Shown: positions 3,411 to 18,963 of the stretch, one piece after another
Layout of the letters: the number at the start of each line of letters is the position of its first letter
Position numbering within the stretch: position 1 is the first letter of the stretch
From: a virus
Virus record (IMG/VR): IMGVR_UViG_3300032241_000904
Span: 1-24,580 of that record
Length of the DNA stretch: 24,580 nucleotides
Strand: one strand, 5' to 3'
The notes under the pieces: generated by a model
What the model was told of the DNA's origin: nothing
The model's database searches: none
What the model saw: the letters and a program-made list of their open reading frames with translations, nothing else
Position numbers and translations under genes: made by a program

Positions 3411-3628
3411 TATGGCCTTTTAAAACCAAACCCAGAACAGAAACAAAAGTTCCTGAATTTACAGATATCAAGTTTGGTGTTCATCTTTATAAACCGCAAA
3501 TTGATATAACTCCACACGAGGTAGCACTGCTATTGCCCATGTTCCGTACCGGATGGGGGCTTATAAATTATCAACCTTATGTTGAAAAAAATAACCTTAC
3601 AAGACACTTTGTCAAAGTAGAAGAATGA
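3407..3628 (+). CDS. Hypothetical protein, 73 aa
   Basis: This is a short soluble protein beginning MIWPFKTKP, with a basic N-terminus and an amphipathic middle (EVALLLPMF). It starts inside an ATGA overlap with the preceding gene and its own stop overlaps the ATG of the zinc-finger gene, so coding status is supported mainly by its place in an unbroken chain of coupled genes. I recognise no motif, signal peptide or membrane segment. An overlapping reading frame on the opposite strand (3314-3517) has no supporting start signal and spans two genes. Confidence 0.7.
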   Translation: MIWPFKTKPRTETKVPEFTDIKFGVHLYKPQIDITPHEVALLLPMFRTGWGLINYQPYVEKNNLTRHFVKVEE

Positions 3629-4299
3629 AGTATACCTGCCAGTATTGTCGGAAAGACTTTATGAAAGAGTCCAGTCTTGCGGTGCATTCATGCGAACCGC
3701 GGCGCCGTCGCATGGAAAAAGACGAACCAGGTGTGCGGCTAGGATTTCACGCTTATATCAAGTTTTACGAACTTACACAGGGTAGTGCTCGACTAAAAAC
3801 CTTCGATGACTTTGCTGATAGCCCTTACTACCGGGCCTTTGTGAAGTTTGGTCGTTATTGCGTGGACATACGTGCTGTCAATCCTGAACAGTTTGTTCGA
3901 TGGGTATTGAAACAAAATAAAAAACTAGATCACTGGGCCAAAGATTCAGTCTATACAGAATATCTGACCGACTACTTGCGTGTGGAGAATGTGAATGATG
4001 CTCTGGCCCGTGCCATTGAATTTGGTATTGATTGGTCAGAACAAACAGGTAACCCTCCGCACGATTGCCTGCGTTATGGCAATAGCAATGCCATGTCCTA
4101 TGCTGTGACCACAGGCCGTATCAGTCCCTGGGTGATTTACAACTGTGAGTCTGGTCAGAAGTTCCTAAGTGAGTTGGATGCCACACAAATTGCCATGATC
4201 TGGCCCTACATTGATTCGGACTTTTGGATGAAAAAGTTTCGAGACTATCCAGCCGATCAAGAGTATACAAAAGAAATCCTACAGAAAGCAGGTTGGTAA
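3625..4299 (+). CDS. Zinc-finger protein, unknown function (224 aa)
   Basis: The first 25 residues form a small zinc-binding motif of C2H2-like layout: C5-x2-C8, then H21-x-C23, with the hydrophobic positions usual for a classical finger. It is followed by a strongly basic stretch, RRRRM, that could contact nucleic acid. The remaining 190 residues are helical and rich in aromatics (for example SPYYRAFVKFGRYC and WVIYNCESGQKF) and end in EILQKAGW. I recall similar proteins in aquatic T4-like phages with no assigned function. The genes before and after are coupled by four-base and one-base overlaps. The setting among replication-type genes suggests a DNA- or RNA-binding role; this is inference. 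Confidence 0.8.
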   Translation: MKYTCQYCRKDFMKESSLAVHSCEPRRRRMEKDEPGVRLGFHAYIKFYELTQGSARLKTFDDFADSPYYRAFVKFGRYCVDIRAVNPEQFVRWVLKQNKKLDHWAKDSVYTEYLTDYLRVENVNDALARAIEFGIDWSEQTGNPPHDCLRYGNSNAMSYAVTTGRISPWVIYNCESGQKFLSELDATQIAMIWPYIDSDFWMKKFRDYPADQEYTKEILQKAGW

Positions 4300-5009
4300 T
4301 GATATTGTATTGTAATAGCGATAGCTATGGAGTAATGAGCACAACCAAAAATAGATACAGTGAATATCTTGGGGAATTGCTGAAAACAAATACAGTAATC
4401 AACAATGGGCTATCCGGATCATGTAATGCTCGTATTATACGAACAACAGTAAGAGATATTCTGGACCTAAGAAAAAACAACAACGACTCAATTCTAGCAG
4501 TTATATGTTTAGGAAGCATGATCAGGAACGAGTGGTGGAATGTCGATAAAACATTACCAGCTGGTTTTAAGGATGGACATTTTGAAAGTTTTCAAATACA
4601 CGGAATACACGGTATTGAAAATAATCAACGCTTGCCATATTATCGTTATGCTCAAGAATGGTATCGTCATTATGATGACGAAGCAGAACAAACAAACTTT
4701 TTAAAAGAGTTGGTAATGTTAACCAGTTTTTTGAAACAACAAAATGTCAATTACATCATGTTTGCTGGTAACAATGTAACTTATAAGCTAATAGACTATC
4801 AGGATATTTTTATTAAATCATTTTCGGATTATGTATACAGTGATCCTAGAATTCTTAATTTAAATACATTTAGTTTTACACAGTATTGTTTAGAAAAACA
4901 ACATGTTCCGTTTGATTTTGATCAATGGGGTAATCACGGACATCACGGTGATTTGGCTCATAAAGATTTTGCAAATTTCCTTTTTGACCACTATAATACA
5001 TTACTATGA
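4299..5009 (+). CDS. SGNH/GDSL-like hydrolase-fold protein
   Basis: SGNH-fold enzymes are esterases or acyl-hydrolases, often acting on glycans or lipids. This 236-residue protein shows the block order of the fold: an N-terminal strand leading to NSDSYG (residues 6-11, nucleophile candidate S9 in place of the GDS serine), a block II-like NNGLSGSCNARI segment carrying Gly and Asn, an ICLGSMIRNEWW block III candidate, and near the C-terminus DQWGNHGHHGDLAHKDFANFL with several His as the catalytic His candidate. The open frame extends upstream to 4224, but that portion lies inside the zinc-finger gene; the ATG at 4299 overlaps that gene's stop and places the nucleophile strand at the N-terminus. 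The substrate is unknown. Activity is not certain because the motifs diverge from consensus. Confidence 0.7.
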   Translation: MILYCNSDSYGVMSTTKNRYSEYLGELLKTNTVINNGLSGSCNARIIRTTVRDILDLRKNNNDSILAVICLGSMIRNEWWNVDKTLPAGFKDGHFESFQIHGIHGIENNQRLPYYRYAQEWYRHYDDEAEQTNFLKELVMLTSFLKQQNVNYIMFAGNNVTYKLIDYQDIFIKSFSDYVYSDPRILNLNTFSFTQYCLEKQHVPFDFDQWGNHGHHGDLAHKDFANFLFDHYNTLL

Positions 5010-5584
5010 GTGCAGATATTGACCTGGACCTGGCTGACAGAGACCAAGTACTAAAGCTAATTCGGGCCACACCGGCACGCCAACTACATCAAGGGCAAGT
5101 GCGTAGACACAACTCGGGTGTGTATGTGACCGACATTCCGTATGATCCTGTAAATCAGTGTGCTGCTATCGACTATGAACAGGCAGAACAACTGGGATAC
5201 TTCAAAATTGACCTGTTGAACATGTCAGTATATCAACTGATCAAAAACCCCGAACACTACGAAACCATGTTGGGTCAAGAACCCACGTGGTCAAAACTAT
5301 GGACCGATACTGCCTGGGCCAAACAATTGGTACACGTGGGTAACTATACAGATTTATTACAGGCAATGCGACCGGATTCTATACCTAGAATGGCAGCATT
5401 TATCAGTATTATTCGCCCAGGCAAGGCACACTTACAAAACAGGCCGTGGGCAGAAGTGTTTGAATCAGTGTGGGATGGTGATGATTCACGAGGGTTTGTG
5501 TTCAAACATGCACATGCTATCGGCTATGCGGCCTTGGTGGCCTTGCATATGAACCTACTCAGTCAAGACGTCTTACAAGTGTAA
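5006..5584 (+). CDS. Mini-protein related to DNA polymerase III alpha (DnaE palm/fingers), probably non-catalytic
   Basis: Four motifs of C-family replicative polymerases occur in the right order in only 192 residues: RRHNSGVY at 33-40 (compare the HAGGVVI block), YFKIDLLN at 65-72 (compare KFDFLGL, whose Asp is the third catalytic carboxylate), IIRPGK at 135-140 (compare RPGP), and FKHAHAIGYAA at 166-176 (compare FxKSHxxAYA). Spacing between the first three is close to that in DnaE; about 100 residues before the fourth appear to be removed. The PHP domain, the first two catalytic aspartates and the C-terminal clamp and OB regions are absent, so DNA synthesis by this protein alone is not expected. 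I recall homologues in aquatic T4-like phages. It could bind DNA or modulate a host or phage replication protein. The stop lies 26 bases inside a convergent minus-strand gene. Confidence 0.7.
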   Translation: MSADIDLDLADRDQVLKLIRATPARQLHQGQVRRHNSGVYVTDIPYDPVNQCAAIDYEQAEQLGYFKIDLLNMSVYQLIKNPEHYETMLGQEPTWSKLWTDTAWAKQLVHVGNYTDLLQAMRPDSIPRMAAFISIIRPGKAHLQNRPWAEVFESVWDGDDSRGFVFKHAHAIGYAALVALHMNLLSQDVLQV

Positions 5585-5936
5585 TACTTTTACGTTTGCT
5601 TTTCTTACGTGCCATTTCACTTAGACTACAGGCAGGGCCGTGCATGATTTCCAGGTCTTTATTGACAAAAGTACGCAGGTATCCACGGAACAGATCCCAC
5701 TCGCCTTTGAGGAATATGTTGATGGGTATACTACGATTGCTTTCCCACCACCAAATATTGGCCAACTCTAAGAATTTGCGCTTTTCTTCTACACTTTGAA
5801 TACTGCCAAAGTCATAGATAGTGGTGATTATGTCATCACGATTTTGTATAATACCCACATATTCGTGAGTGGCGTAGACACACAAGGTGATAAACGGGTA
5901 TTTGTCGGCCAATTGTGTGAAGATATTGTCTGTCAT
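5559..5936 (-). CDS. Minus-strand conserved hypothetical protein, 125 aa
   Basis: No + strand gene occupies most of this stretch, and this frame fills it with normal composition. The protein begins MTDNIFTQLADKYPFITLCV, has a central KFLELANIWWWESNRSIPINIFLKGEW block, and ends in a highly basic tail (EMARKKSKRKSITLVRRLD) that suggests nucleic-acid or RNA polymerase contact. I recall proteins of this style in aquatic T4-like genomes, always unannotated. A late-promoter-like CATAAATA lies on the same strand at 5953-5946, nine bases before the ATG; there is no clear Shine-Dalgarno sequence, so the message would be nearly leaderless. The 3' end overlaps the convergent DnaE-like gene by 26 bases. 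Confidence 0.75.
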   Translation of the reverse strand: MTDNIFTQLADKYPFITLCVYATHEYVGIIQNRDDIITTIYDFGSIQSVEEKRKFLELANIWWWESNRSIPINIFLKGEWDLFRGYLRTFVNKDLEIMHGPACSLSEMARKKSKRKSITLVRRLD

Positions 5937-5996: not shown

Positions 5997-7181
5997 ATGT
6001 ATTCAACCGAAGTGTATATCTATCAGCAGTTAACCCGGGTCCTGGCGCTGGACAGCACAGACCCCAATATCTTTACCTACAGGTATAATCCCGTGTACTC
6101 CAAAATCTTGACCATAAACAAAGGTGTTGACAATGTGTTGCTATTTCAGTTTGTTAACCAAAACGAAAAACCAGTCAATGTGACTGGTAGCACTTTCATG
6201 TTCCGCCTGCTCAACACCGAAGGCACAGTGATTTTACTAGAACAACCCATGGTCATATTGAATGGTCCCGCAGGTCAAGTTAAAGTTACATTGAGTACTC
6301 CAGACCTATTAGATGTGTTAGCACAGCCAGCCAGTTACAGTATCACCAGAGCCAGCGGCGTATTAAATGAAGCAGTATTCACTGATGCGCAGTCAGGTGC
6401 CCGTGCTCCTTGTAACATTGTAAATTCAGTCTTGCCACAGTATGTACCCAGTGCACCATTAACTATACCTACTGTTAAAATGAGTGCCCAGGGCAGCCCC
6501 GATGGCACCAGCTACGACAACTATCCTGGAGCCGATTGGTACTGGGGTGGAAACCCCAACGGTGCCAACTACTGGAATTCGTTTTTAAATACAGAATACT
6601 ACAGCAGTTTCGTTGTGCCCAAATATCCAGTGACCACAGTGCAGATGACCTTGGATGGATACACTGGTACTATCAAAGCACAGGCAGCAGAAGACTACCA
6701 ATCGGTCCCTTACAATGTGCCATTGGGGGTCAATCTAGATAATCCAACTGGAGCCGAAAGCATTACCTATTACAACTATACTGGAACCATTTATCTCAAC
6801 ATAATTGGTTGGTATCCCTTGGTTCGACTCTGCTTCAACAACAGTATTTTTGCTGTACCGGGCGGTAATGGCGTTCCGGCACAGGCCTATGCCGCTTGTA
6901 CCGACGGCATGGTCACTAATATTACAGTTCAAAATGCCGGACAAGGTTATCTAGCACCACCCAAGATTAACATTGTGGGCGATGGCGCTGGTGCCACTGC
7001 CGAAGCCACCATCAGCGACACTGGTAGTATCGAAAGTATTACTGTAACCAACGGTGGATCTGGCTACTGGCTGATGCCCAATGCCGGCATCAACACACCT
7101 TATTATCCAGTGGCACCCAGTCAACAAGGTGCAATGGTTATCATCAGCACCGGTTATGTCTTGGATCTGTTCTACAGATAA
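5997..7181 (+). CDS. Baseplate/tail structural protein with BppU-like N-terminus
   Basis: This 394-residue protein is probably part of the tail tip or a fibre attachment. Residues about 38-130 resemble the N-terminal domain of phage baseplate upper proteins: a strand-rich segment beginning TINKGVDNVLLFQFVNQ, followed by PVNVTGSTFMFRLLNTEG and a GPAGQVKVTLSTPDLL block. The middle is rich in Gly, Tyr, Asn and Pro. Near the C-terminus (about 305-360) are repeats of the type GQGYLAPPKINIVGDGAGATAEA and SIESITVTNGGSGY, a strand-turn pattern common in phage fibre and baseplate proteins. There are few charged residues and no enzyme motif. It is preceded by a late-promoter motif and followed at once by an SGNH-like gene, which may act with it at the cell surface. 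Confidence 0.75.
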   Translation: MYSTEVYIYQQLTRVLALDSTDPNIFTYRYNPVYSKILTINKGVDNVLLFQFVNQNEKPVNVTGSTFMFRLLNTEGTVILLEQPMVILNGPAGQVKVTLSTPDLLDVLAQPASYSITRASGVLNEAVFTDAQSGARAPCNIVNSVLPQYVPSAPLTIPTVKMSAQGSPDGTSYDNYPGADWYWGGNPNGANYWNSFLNTEYYSSFVVPKYPVTTVQMTLDGYTGTIKAQAAEDYQSVPYNVPLGVNLDNPTGAESITYYNYTGTIYLNIIGWYPLVRLCFNNSIFAVPGGNGVPAQAYAACTDGMVTNITVQNAGQGYLAPPKINIVGDGAGATAEATISDTGSIESITVTNGGSGYWLMPNAGINTPYYPVAPSQQGAMVIISTGYVLDLFYR

Positions 7182-7892
7182 ATGAAATTCCAAAAAATTG
7201 TAGGATTCGGCGACAGTTGGATCTGGGGTGACGAACTGGTCGATCCTGCACTTGAGTCACACCCTAGATGCGCACCAGACCTGACAGAAAATACCACGTA
7301 TAGAGAACAACACTGTTTTCTAGGTCTATTAGGCCAACACTATTCGGTGCCGGTAGAAAACTACGGTATACCCGGCGGTAGTTTGCAAAGTGCTGTATGG
7401 ACCTTTCTTTGGTGGTTGGATCACGAGCCCAATCCAAATGAATGTTTGATCCTGGTTGGACATACTGATGCTGCCAGATTCAGCTACTATGATCCCAATC
7501 GTGTCATGGCACCCATTGATCCAGACTGGAACAGGTTTGTACACAGTGCATGGCCCGGCAATGATCAATGGCAACCGTTGATACAGCAACAAATAGTCCT
7601 AACCGACAGTAGGCAGATACAGGCCTTGCGATTCCAAGAAACAGTTCTGTTGTTCGATGGTGTGGCTGCTAGACAAGGCCTAAATATGATACAGTTTAAT
7701 CTGGCTGAACCTGTGCGTTTGGTTAGTCATGCCGTTACCCTGGCTTGGCCGGATTGGAGTTTTAGTCGTTGGTTCCTCAAAGACCTGCCTGTAAAATACC
7801 GCAAATCAGGTAATCATCCAACGGAACTGGGTCACCGATTGATATGTGATCGCTTGATTTCTCGTATAGATTCCTGTATAATCAAAGGATGA
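7182..7892 (+). CDS. SGNH/GDSL-like hydrolase
   Basis: The N-terminus shows a classical block I: IVGFGDSW, with G10-D11-S12 and S12 as the nucleophile candidate. Block II fits NYGIPGGSLQSA (Gly, then Asn-type oxyanion region), block III fits ILVGHTDAAR, and the C-terminal SGNHPTELGHRL carries the His expected of the catalytic pair, although the usual Asp three residues before it is not seen, so the triad may be a dyad. Length, 236 residues, is normal. The ATG follows the stop of the tail protein with no gap, and the stop overlaps the primase ATG. Possible roles are removal of acyl groups from surface polysaccharide during adsorption, or modification of a virion or cell glycan; neither can be decided from sequence. 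Confidence 0.75.
   Translation: MKFQKIVGFGDSWIWGDELVDPALESHPRCAPDLTENTTYREQHCFLGLLGQHYSVPVENYGIPGGSLQSAVWTFLWWLDHEPNPNECLILVGHTDAARFSYYDPNRVMAPIDPDWNRFVHSAWPGNDQWQPLIQQQIVLTDSRQIQALRFQETVLLFDGVAARQGLNMIQFNLAEPVRLVSHAVTLAWPDWSFSRWFLKDLPVKYRKSGNHPTELGHRLICDRLISRIDSCIIKG
7854..7882 (+). promoter_or_regulatory. Sigma70-like promoter, TTGATT-17-TATAAT
   Basis: The -35 box TTGATT at 7854-7859 and consensus TATAAT at 7877-7882 are 17 bp apart, inside the 3' end of the SGNH gene. Exactly six bases separate the -10 box from the primase ATG at 7889, so transcription would begin at about the first base of the start codon. The same six-base spacing is found at 2250-2262. Confidence 0.6.
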
Positions 7893-8851: not shown

Positions 8852-10238
8852 TGTCCAAAAACTATTCTTAGAAATGATGTTGCAAGACGCAGAGTCGTAT
8901 GTGCGTGTGCAGAACATTTATAATCCCGAAAACTTTGATAGAAGTTTGCGCCCAGCGGCCGAGTTCATTGCCCGCCACAGCGACGAATACAAGACTCTGC
9001 CCACAGTAGATCAAATCGGTGCCAGTACAGGTGTTAAGTTACAGACTGTGCCAGATTTAAATGAAGGGCACTTTGAATGGTTTATGTCTGAGTTTGAAAG
9101 TTTTACTCGCAGACAAGAACTAGAACGTGCTATTCTTAAGTCAGCAGATCTGTTAGAAAAAGGCGAGTATGATCCGGTAGAAAAACTTATCAAAGACGCA
9201 GTTCAAATCAGCTTGACCAAAGACATGGGCACAGATTACTGGGCTGATCCAAGACAACGTATTGACAAGTATTTTAATTCGGGCGGACAGGTAAGCACAG
9301 GTTGGCCACAGATGGACAAGATCCTGTATGGCGGATTCAGTCGTGGTGAACTGAACATTTTTGCAGGCGGATCCGGATCAGGTAAGTCGCTGGTTATGAT
9401 GAACATAGCATTGAGCTGGTTGCAAGCAGGACTGAGCGGTGTGTATATCAGCTTAGAACTCAGCGAAGAACTGTGTGCCCTAAGAACTGACGCCATGTTG
9501 AGTGGCATGAGCACAAAAGAAATACGCAAGGATATTGATCAAACTGAACTCAAAGTCAAATTGGTATCGAAGAAAGCCGGACAGTATAGAATCAAGGCCC
9601 TACCAGCACAGAGCAACATCAACGACATTCGTAGCTATATCAAAGAAGTACAGGTACAGACCGGAATCCGGGTAGATTTTGTCATGTGTGACTACTTGGA
9701 CTTGTTGATGCCAGTCAGTGCCAAGGTTAGCCCAAATGACTTATTTGTCAAAGACAAGTATGTGTCGGAAGAACTGCGTAACTTGGCCAAAGAACTCAAC
9801 GTGTTGTTTGTGACAGCGTCGCAGTTGAATCGATCGGCTGTGGAAGAAATTGAATTTGATCACAGTCATATTTCAGGTGGCATCAGTAAGATCAACACAG
9901 CAGACAACGTGTTTGGTATTTTTACCAGTAGAGCTATGCGTGAACGTGGCAAGTATCAGATCCAGTGTATGAAGTCACGTAGCTCAACAGGCGTTGGTAT
10001 GAAGATTGACCTAGACTACAACATTGAAACCATGCGTATCACAGACCCTGGCGAGGAAGAACAATCTGGATTTAGACGTCCTGGCGGCAATTTACTGGAT
10101 TCGATCAAGGCAAAAAGCACAATGATTAACGGTACCGAACCTGCTAATCCCGCAGACAGAGAAGAAGCGGGCAAAATTACAGCCGATGTACAAAGTGCCA
10201 AATTAAAGCAGTTGTTAGGGCAGATTAAAACGTCATGA
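8829..10238 (+). CDS. 41: Replicative DNA helicase (T4 gp41/DnaB-like)
   Basis: The hexameric helicase unwinds the fork ahead of the phage polymerase and carries the primase. The N-terminal 140 residues are the helical DnaB-type domain. The RecA-type motor starts near STGWPQMDKILYGGFSRGELNIFAG, with Walker A GGSGSGKS at 180-187, the helicase H2-type segment VDFVMCDYLDLL near residue 294, and the conserved TASQLNRSA block. The long C-terminal tail (GFRRPGGNLLDSI onward) is variable and may hold the primase-contact region. Length is 469 residues against about 475 in T4. The start is TTG at 8829, supported by AAGGAAG at 8815-8821, seven bases upstream; no ATG occurs nearby that would keep the whole first helix. 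Confidence 0.93.
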   Translation: MLKDYGLDVQKLFLEMMLQDAESYVRVQNIYNPENFDRSLRPAAEFIARHSDEYKTLPTVDQIGASTGVKLQTVPDLNEGHFEWFMSEFESFTRRQELERAILKSADLLEKGEYDPVEKLIKDAVQISLTKDMGTDYWADPRQRIDKYFNSGGQVSTGWPQMDKILYGGFSRGELNIFAGGSGSGKSLVMMNIALSWLQAGLSGVYISLELSEELCALRTDAMLSGMSTKEIRKDIDQTELKVKLVSKKAGQYRIKALPAQSNINDIRSYIKEVQVQTGIRVDFVMCDYLDLLMPVSAKVSPNDLFVKDKYVSEELRNLAKELNVLFVTASQLNRSAVEEIEFDHSHISGGISKINTADNVFGIFTSRAMRERGKYQIQCMKSRSSTGVGMKIDLDYNIETMRITDPGEEEQSGFRRPGGNLLDSIKAKSTMINGTEPANPADREEAGKITADVQSAKLKQLLGQIKTS

Positions 10239-11350
10239 CCGATCTGTATTGTTCTATGATACACGGCGGATTAAATTTGAATTTTAAATCCAAGACGGTG
10301 TTAGTACAAAATTGTTGTCTACGCAGAGATTTGTCACCAATTTCTGTTGATCAAGATATTTGGAATAATCCTGCGCTGGTACCGTTGAGAGATATCAATA
10401 AACAAAATATTTGGGATCCAGGTTGTTCAAACTGTCGACAATTAGAAGCAATGTCTTACGACAGCTTTAGAACAGGTATGAACAAAGGTTTACAAATGTA
10501 CGGACAGTCTAATTTAACTGGCCCGGCACGAATTGACCTTATGTTTGATATTAGTTGTAATTTAGCTTGCCGTATTTGTGGCGTAGACAACAGCACCTAT
10601 TGGCAACGACATCTTAAAGATCATGGTCAATGGAATCAACCTATATCAACTCCAGGTAAAAAATCTCAGGTAATTGACGCTTTAAGTAAACTAGATCTTT
10701 CAAACTTAAGGCAATTGGTGTTTTGTGGTGGCGAAACTTTATTGGGGCAAGAATATTGGGATGTAGCCAGGTGGTTGGCAGACCATATGCCCAATGCTGA
10801 TCGTCAATTGACCTTGTGTTTTCAAACCAATGGCACACAATACATACATGCTAAGAATTTTGATACAATTAAGAAATTTCATTTGGTAAAATTACACATC
10901 AGTTTAGACGGAGTTGGTGATAAATTTGAGTATCAACGGTGGCCAGCTAACTGGAATCAAGTCTCCAATAACATATTGAATTTACGGGAAACTTTGCCCA
11001 GTAATGTAATGTTTGTGGTAGAAGAAACTATTAGTATATTTAATTTACTGTATCAACAAGAACTGGATACATGGGTCGATACAAATTTTAACACCAATAG
11101 AGAAGGCGACATTACTAATCATACCAAGCACATGGCTGCTGGTATATTCAATCTCAATAACATGACACAAGAATATGCAGATTTATTAACTAAATCTGCA
11201 TATAAAAATTTCGTGCCAGTTGGGTGGAAAGAAAATTCCAAAAACATACAGAGCATGCTAGAGGAAATCAAGAAATTTGACGCTTTACGAGGCGAATCCT
11301 TTGAACAGGTGTTTCCTGAATTAGCAAATCTTTACCGCAGATTCTGGTAA
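10235..11350 (+). CDS. Twitch/SPASM-type radical SAM protein
   Basis: Radical SAM enzymes use a [4Fe-4S] cluster and S-adenosylmethionine to make a 5'-deoxyadenosyl radical. The cluster motif is intact: C108-x3-C112-x2-C115 in FDISCNLACRICG. The SAM-binding GGE follows at 165-167 (VFCGGETLL), and QTNGTQ and HISLDGVG mark later strands of the TIM-type barrel. An extra N-terminal module has CCLRRD and a GCSNC pair (C64, C67) leading into LEAMSYDSFR, typical from memory of a radical SAM family widespread in aquatic T4-like phages. The substrate is unknown. Length is 371 residues. ATG overlaps the helicase stop (ATGA). Its stop codon lies inside the next late-promoter motif. Base composition is more AT-rich than the primase/helicase genes. 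Confidence 0.88.
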   Translation: MTDLYCSMIHGGLNLNFKSKTVLVQNCCLRRDLSPISVDQDIWNNPALVPLRDINKQNIWDPGCSNCRQLEAMSYDSFRTGMNKGLQMYGQSNLTGPARIDLMFDISCNLACRICGVDNSTYWQRHLKDHGQWNQPISTPGKKSQVIDALSKLDLSNLRQLVFCGGETLLGQEYWDVARWLADHMPNADRQLTLCFQTNGTQYIHAKNFDTIKKFHLVKLHISLDGVGDKFEYQRWPANWNQVSNNILNLRETLPSNVMFVVEETISIFNLLYQQELDTWVDTNFNTNREGDITNHTKHMAAGIFNLNNMTQEYADLLTKSAYKNFVPVGWKENSKNIQSMLEEIKKFDALRGESFEQVFPELANLYRRFW

Positions 11351-18290: not shown

Positions 18291-18671
18291 ATGGCATATT
18301 CAGAAAAAGTAATTGATCACTATGAAAATCCACGTAACGTGGGCAAGATGGACGCCACTGACGATTCAGTGGGCACAGGTATGGTAGGTGCTCCGGCTTG
18401 CGGTGATGTAATGAAGTTACAAATCCGAGTAGAAGATGGGATTATAACAGATGCAAAATTCAAAACATACGGGTGTGGGTCGGCGATCGCGAGTAGCAGT
18501 CTCGTCACGGAGTGGGTCAAAGGAAAAACGCTTGAGCAGGCTGGATCAATTAAGAACAGTGACATCGCTGAGGAACTCGCGCTACCGCCAGTTAAGATCC
18601 ATTGCAGTATCCTTGCGGAAGACGCTATTAAGGCCGCGATAGATGATTACCGTAACAAACACAGCCAGTAA
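18291..18671 (+). CDS. iscU: IscU, Fe-S cluster assembly scaffold
   Basis: IscU receives sulphur from IscS and iron, builds a [2Fe-2S] cluster and hands it on with HscA/HscB. The 126-residue product is full length and very close to beta/gammaproteobacterial IscU by memory. All ligands are present: C37 and D39 in APACGDV, C62 in YGCGSAIASSS, and H104-C105 in KIHCSIL; the HscA recognition motif LPPVK is at 98-102. The start has AGAGG at 18281-18285. It is two bases after the exported-protein gene and overlaps iscA by 29 bases. IscS, HscA, HscB and ferredoxin are not in the window, so it must use host partners. Parts of the gene (18481-18540, 35 of 60 bases G or C) are richer in GC than the flanks, consistent with transfer from a bacterium. 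Confidence 0.97.
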   Translation: MAYSEKVIDHYENPRNVGKMDATDDSVGTGMVGAPACGDVMKLQIRVEDGIITDAKFKTYGCGSAIASSSLVTEWVKGKTLEQAGSIKNSDIAEELALPPVKIHCSILAEDAIKAAIDDYRNKHSQ

Positions 18672-18963
18672 AAAAATCAAAGACAATTTAACCAAGCGTG
18701 GCAAAGGCATTGGTATCCGTGTGGGTGTAAGAACTACCGGTTGTTCAGGACTTGCTTATGTGTTAGAATATGTAGATGAGTCATGGCCCGGATCTACCAG
18801 TTACTTGCAAGACGGATTCAGCATAATAGTAGACAACAAAGACTTGCCTGTTGTAGGTGATATAGAAATAGATTATGTTCGTCAAGGCCTCAACGAAGGT
18901 TTTGAATTCAACAACCCTGTAGAACGAGACCGCTGTGGATGCGGAGAAAGTTTTCGTGTATAA
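18643..18963 (+). CDS. iscA: IscA-type A-type Fe-S carrier
   Basis: A-type carriers bind iron or a cluster and pass [2Fe-2S]/[4Fe-4S] clusters to target enzymes. This 106-residue protein has the three ligand cysteines: C34 in RTTGCSGLAY and C98/C100 in RCGCGESF, the family's end signature. RGKGIGIRVGVR and FVxQGLNEGFxF-like segments (here YVRQGLNEGFEF) match proteobacterial IscA rather than ErpA or SufA in my judgement. The ATG at 18643 lies 29 bases inside iscU, an overlap much longer than in the usual host isc operon, where the genes are separate, so the pair has been compacted in the phage. An insertion-like SWPGSTSYLQDG region around 47-58 replaces the usual EPxPED-type loop. Confidence 0.93.
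   Translation: MITVTNTASKKIKDNLTKRGKGIGIRVGVRTTGCSGLAYVLEYVDESWPGSTSYLQDGFSIIVDNKDLPVVGDIEIDYVRQGLNEGFEFNNPVERDRCGCGESFRV

Follow-up and report, generated by a model that had tools for sequence, protein, structure and literature searches.

A 192-residue protein encoded by a T4-type phage fragment is very likely one half of a split minimal C-family DNA polymerase

A split minimal form of the DNA polymerase III alpha subunit has been described in group 2.2 jumbo phages on the basis of sequence analysis, and the two halves were suggested to reconstitute an enzyme that serves one strand or functions in repair (Iyer et al. 2021, PMC7824862). A search of the open-access literature found no experiments on this split protein. 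Here a gene of the same kind is analyzed in a 24,580-nt stretch of viral DNA from the metagenomic record IMGVR_UViG_3300032241_000904 (positions 1 to 24,580, hereafter the window). The gene is on the plus strand at positions 5006..5584 and encodes a protein of 192 aa, termed mini-C, which represents the second half of the palm and reduced fingers of the putative split polymerase. The jumbo phage proteins belong to the same two families as those analyzed here, phrog_11778 for the C-terminal half and phrog_11127 for the N-terminal half (mini-N). The similarities extend to the organization seen in relatives of the window: the two halves are encoded by distant genes, a family B polymerase is present alongside, and no other Pol III domains are found. 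In both cases the C-terminal half, which carries the Mg- and template-binding part, is a small stand-alone protein. The window differs from the described phages in that it is a freshwater-type metagenomic relative, is a fragment with no mini-N in view, and shows a Lys to His change at position 168 of mini-C. Thus mini-C of the window joins a kind of protein already described in PMC7824862 and is not a new discovery; what is added here is the exact tiling of the two halves, the conservation of the active site, the near-strict co-occurrence of the halves, and their presence in 141-kb phages.

Bacterial DnaE and PolC, together with DnaE2, share with the phage proteins the palm Asp triad, the GS motif, the core finger motifs, and a fold that extends over 183–189 residues. 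However, DnaE and PolC are single chains of 900–1400 residues, whereas the mini pair consists of two polypeptides that total ~360 residues and lack the PHP, thumb, mid-finger, beta-binding and C-terminal domains. The single-polypeptide layout of DnaE/PolC is therefore not found in mini-C, which has 192 aa and a palm that begins at the PDxDxD motif. A T4 gp43-type B-family polymerase is found in the same phages as mini-C, as a separate gene. The palm fold of B-family polymerases is unrelated to the C-family palm.

The mini-C gene is a genuine gene under strong purifying selection, as relatives are widespread and dN/dS is low (0.03–0.07). Homologs are encoded by at least 597 IMG/VR stretches and by 63 phage records, the latter almost all of jumbo phages, of the RaK2, 121Q, PA5oct, CBB, Atu_ph07, Phosso, XacN1 and SCTP-2 types. 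The aa identity of the window protein is 26–41% with named phages and 72–91% with IMG/VR relatives. A comparison with 174 IMG/VR relatives gave a median dN/dS of 0.066, with values of 0.03–0.05 for the nearest relatives for which a value is defined; these values rule out a degraded pseudogene. The start codon shares the sequence ATGA (5006–5009) with the stop codon of the upstream open reading frame. In a search with PHROG profiles the window protein is assigned to phrog_11778 (“DNA polymerase”, 197 aa) with an E value of 4e-52, and it matches phrog_405 (DNA polymerase, 1190 aa) more weakly, at E 7e-5. As a single sequence the window protein finds no match in Pfam, NCBIfam or PDB sequences, and profiles are required to detect its homology; the Pfam DNA_pol3_finger domain is matched in 18 of 41 members of the family (best E 3e-5). 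An hhalign comparison with a profile of nine DnaE sequences gave E values of 3e-6 (local) and 5e-11 (global), where the local alignment stops short of the thumb deletion. This profile was used in place of E. coli DnaE alone, which misaligned mini-C to the DnaE C terminus (E 0.09). The homology of mini-C to the palm and fingers of DnaE/PolC is certain for practical purposes.

The N terminus of mini-C, M-S-A-D4-I-D6-L-D8, corresponds to the PDxDxD motif of C-family polymerases (P400-D401-F402-D403-V404-D405 in E. coli DnaE). The segment D4-I-D6-L-D8 (5015..5029, plus strand, as are all motifs that follow) thus contains the equivalents of the E. coli catalytic pair D401/D403, plus D405; the alignment of D4 and D6 is based on motif identity, the ranges of the structural alignments, and invariance. 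H35-N-S-G38 (5108..5119) aligns with H511-A-G-G of E. coli. The third catalytic Asp is within K67-I-D69 (5204..5212), which corresponds to K553 and D555 in the E. coli segment K553-F-D555-F-L. Two finger motifs follow, R137-P-G-K140 (5414..5425), equivalent to E. coli R639-P-G-P by HMM alignment to Mycobacterium tuberculosis (Mtb), E. coli and other DnaE sequences, and F166-K-H-A-H170-A-I-G-Y174 (5501..5527), equivalent to F756-N-K-S-H-S-A-A-Y764. Among 155 distinct mini-C sequences, D4, D6, D8, H35, G38, P45, K67 and D69 are kept in all 155; R137, P138, K140 and H170 are kept in 154, and the remaining sequence has a gap. The C-family catalytic triad, PDxD...D, is thus located in mini-C, and the GS motif is found in mini-N of relatives. 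Some relatives of mini-C (Phosso) display the sequence TDIDIDFADRD, which is close to PDIDIDFADTHR of a pbunavirus DnaE. Position 168 is variable among distinct relatives, with K in 96, H in 51, Q in 4 and R in 3; the codon (5507–5509, equivalent to E. coli K758) specifies His in the lineage of the window. In PA5oct the C-terminal tail of mini-C (6552–6585) has DPFKLFS as its last residues and resembles a clamp-binding peptide, which is absent from the other relatives shown.

A first-pass annotation of the window had described this protein as a miniature Pol III alpha-like protein with DnaE palm and finger motifs in order within 192 aa, and this is borne out by H35xxG38, K67xD69, R137P138 and FKxxHAxxY (166–174), as is its statement that the PHP domain and the clamp-binding C terminus are absent; the C-terminal tau region is absent as well. 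It had also proposed that the catalytic Asp pair is missing, which is incorrect: D4 and D6 are present at the very N terminus, are invariant in 155/155 sequences, and mark the point where the structural alignments begin. Nor is the spacing of the motifs nearly that of DnaE as had been thought; compared with E. coli DnaE, ~79 residues are absent between D8 and H35 (the thumb) and ~88 between R137 and H170 (the mid-fingers), and the central block alone is near DnaE spacing. These two deletions could impair DNA binding.

The predicted structure of mini-C is in agreement with the sequence motifs. An AlphaFold2 model, made from a 52-sequence alignment with IMG/VR rows only, has a pLDDT of 90.7 and a pTM of 0.80. 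With this model, the significant Foldseek matches are to C-family polymerases only (E 4e-4, probability 1.0), and VIA-align places 14 C-family chains ahead of all others (Z 9.8–6.2), with 183–189 residues of mini-C aligned at an rmsd of 3.1–4.3 Å. The next fold has a Z of 3.7 and consists of small partial matches. Residues 1–190 of the model align with residues 460–841 of Taq, 418–807 of Mtb, 970–1295 of PolC and 399–781 of E. coli. Model residue 1 is at Taq 460 and PolC 970, and D4 and D6 therefore fall exactly on D463/D465 of Taq and D973/D975 of Geobacillus PolC, the catalytic pairs of these two enzymes. The start of the E. coli alignment is one or two residues off for D4/D6, which is within the looseness of an alignment end. 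Thus profiles and structure agree on a miniature C-family palm/fingers protein in a T4-type phage, as the first-pass annotation had suggested. Of the checks that it had named, the profile comparisons gave C-family matches, the structural comparison gave nearly full-length ones with the next fold far behind, and Asp 69 proved to be retained in all 155 distinct relatives.

To this half there corresponds a second small open reading frame in relatives. A search with phrog_405 located it in 12 of 12 complete relatives that had been picked for mini-C, at profile positions ~361–436, compared with 577–681 for mini-C, and the profile detected no further stretch. This protein, mini-N, has ~170 aa and its PHROG family, phrog_11127, is also named “DNA polymerase”; the family profile finds mini-N in 4/4 additional mini-C records, for a total of 16 of 16 phage or IMG/VR records. 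Mini-N matches Pfam PF07733 (DNA_pol3_alpha) with E values of up to 5e-12, and the match stops at position 94–95 of the 260-position profile. The C-terminal segment of mini-N, WGVGRGSSVASYVLYKLGVHRIDSLYYxLDxxEFLR, is the GS-motif segment of DnaE and continues up to the point where mini-C starts; G-x-G-R-G-S is invariant in mini-N.

The AlphaFold2 model of mini-N has a pLDDT of 84.7 and a pTM of 0.64. VIA-align places residues 68–170 with C-family polymerases only (Z 10.8–6.5), aligned to residues 276–393 of E. coli, 305–413 of Mtb, 295–455 of Taq and 825–965 of PolC. Foldseek E values for this model are weak (best 0.066), with C-family polymerases in the first eight ranks. Mini-N and mini-C together tile each template across its palm and fingers, leaving ~5 residues between them and no overlap; in E. 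coli DnaE, mini-N covers 276–393 and mini-C 399–781. When mini-N is modeled by itself, no strand forms in the GS-motif segment and confidence falls to 71–78 at residues 131–150, as would be expected if the strands that pair with it belong to mini-C. The N-terminal ~68 residues of mini-N (5001–5207 in one relative) replace the PHP side of DnaE and show no structural match among C-family polymerases. A split intein at the junction was considered and rejected: mini-N ends in EFLR or EFLK, mini-C begins at its motif, and no intein sequence remains. No fused, one-gene form of mini-N and mini-C was seen in the records of relatives searched.

The two halves are found together almost without exception. 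By BLAST, 63 phage records have mini-C and 60 have mini-N. The three that have mini-C without a BLAST match to mini-N are the Alishewanella phages Slickus01 and Slicko01 and a 109-kb Klebsiella record. In Slickus01, mini-N was recovered by profile, and Slicko01 is a similar record of equal size and match; the Klebsiella record is probably partial. Both halves are in 8/8 IMG/VR records longer than 300 kb. Shorter IMG/VR records frequently show one half only, as expected of fragments, and the window, itself a record that is a fragment, has mini-C and no mini-N. The circular genome of Slickus01 (OQ508957; 141,644 bases) carries the two halves ~11 kb apart, and the system therefore extends beyond jumbo phages, i.e., beyond genomes of >200 kb.

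Other polymerase parts were also sought in the records of relatives. Of 20 records, 19 have a B-family polymerase (PF00136), and the one that lacks it is a 149-kb fragment. The polymerase is the product of a full-length separate gene, which in a few relatives is split in two. Motif A (SLYP) and motif C (DTDS) are both found in 16 of these 19, whereas in the remaining three a single one of them is recognized. A PHP domain was found in none of 13 records. A DnaQ-like exonuclease (PF00929) was detected in 8 of 13 records, in several of them close to mini-C; it was rejected as an obligate partner, as it is missing from the others and from the two close relatives tested. The first open reading frame of the window is unrelated to the RaK2 exonuclease.

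Around mini-C, the window and most named relatives have the gene order uvsW, small genes, mini-C, a convergent small gene, a structural-type gene, and then the genes for the gp61-type primase and gp41-type helicase; XacN1 and RAS14 have partly different surroundings. The convergent gene (5559–5936, minus strand) encodes 125 aa, belongs to phrog_11637 (function unknown), and shares 26 bases with the 3′ end of mini-C. A small convergent gene occupies the 3′ side of mini-C in nearly all named relatives examined, one gene further away in XacN1 and RAS14. The genes at 4299–5009 and 7182–7892, which flank mini-C, both have the appearance by eye of SGNH/GDSL-type hydrolases; the first matches DUF6071 (PF19547), and no mutual similarity between the two proteins was detected. 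At 3625–4299 there is a 224-aa gene of phrog_11058 with an N-terminal C2H2 zinc-finger-like motif, also seen by eye. Further downstream the window has a radical SAM gene (10235–11350; PF04055, E 5e-8) and adjacent IscU-like and IscA-like genes (18291–18963, by eye from the translation), which together represent iron-sulfur assembly on a phage fragment.

The neighbors of mini-N in relatives are a GroES-like gene, a gp44-type clamp loader, MazG and PhoH, and in several also the topoisomerase gp52; in the nearest complete relative mini-N is beside a GroES-type gene, the clamp loader and PhoH. The first-pass annotation had pointed to a gp62-like gene close to mini-C, and no such match was found near 5006–5584. 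A link to the clamp loader may instead lie with mini-N, which, and not mini-C, is near the gp44 gene in relatives.

Mini-C is very likely one half of a split minimal C-family polymerase. We consider it probable that mini-C and mini-N rebuild this enzyme, and that it carries out metal-dependent nucleotidyl transfer as a distributive accessory to the B-family replicase. Mini-C would bind mini-N, encoded elsewhere in such genomes; their assembly is suggested by complementarity and co-occurrence. Mini-N would supply the first half of a Pol-beta-like palm with the triphosphate-binding GS motif, and mini-C the three metal-binding Asp residues and the remaining finger motifs, so that the halves together would restore one palm and reduced fingers. 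D4, D6 and D69 would then hold two metal ions and catalyze nucleotidyl transfer. The pair is likely to be active as a polymerase. It would be a small, distributive enzyme beside the T4-type B-family replicase, as there is no thumb, PHP, clamp-binding or tau-binding region. Its catalysis and template dependence are postulated, and its role is proposed from the gene neighbors: short synthesis, for example in gap filling, repair or recombination-primed synthesis, appears most likely because the mini-C gene lies between uvsW and the primase/helicase genes, and the pair may also serve the lagging strand.

Other explanations should also be considered. The halves may assemble and transfer nucleotides without templated synthesis, for example as a terminal transferase or in the repair of nucleic-acid ends, in the manner of other Pol-beta superfamily enzymes. 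The duplex-gripping thumb and much of the fingers are missing from a protein pair that has retained the catalytic Asp residues and the GS motif, and these phages are already served by a B-family polymerase, with motifs A and C intact in 16/19 records. However, RPxK and FKxxHAxxY have been conserved, the finger motifs with which C-family enzymes contact the template and the nucleotide to be added, and the mini-C gene is found among recombination and fork genes; this explanation is regarded as unlikely. Less likely still is a non-catalytic remnant, decoy or regulator that would bind DNA or nucleotides or modulate host Pol III. The small size, the lack of processivity parts, and the fact that activity was never reported in the papers found are in line with it, but none of the 155 distinct sequences departs from D4, D6 and D69, and a partner with the matching active-site half is conserved in the same phages. 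A decoy needs neither invariant Asp residues nor a matching partner. The first-pass annotation had favored a remnant, a decoy of the host replisome or a nucleotide-binding factor, and with the catalytic pair present these proposals lose their main premise; no evidence was found in support of a decoy or of binding to host DnaE. A chance resemblance to DnaE by an unrelated fold could be imagined from the fact that the window protein alone finds nothing in Pfam or PDB sequences, but profiles and structure point to C-family polymerases only, and this explanation is refuted, with a negligible chance of being correct.

With the split polymerase as the preferred explanation, a bolder version of it may be put forward, although we would not expect it to prove correct. 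With two subunits and ~360 residues, the pair may be smaller than any other known C-family DNA polymerase and work at the fork of the B-family replicase, for example in primer extension or lagging-strand finishing, where mini-N, encoded near the clamp loader, and mini-C, encoded near the primase-helicase, would join the two ends of the machine. If this were true, two unrelated polymerase families would be at work in the replisome of one virus. More generally, if the pair is active it would be a minimal C-family polymerase of about one-third the size of DnaE, cut inside its catalytic domain and rebuilt from genes separated by tens of kilobases. Such an enzyme would reveal the minimal needs of a Pol III core, and the reason that hundreds of large T4-like phages have retained it beside a complete replicase of another family.
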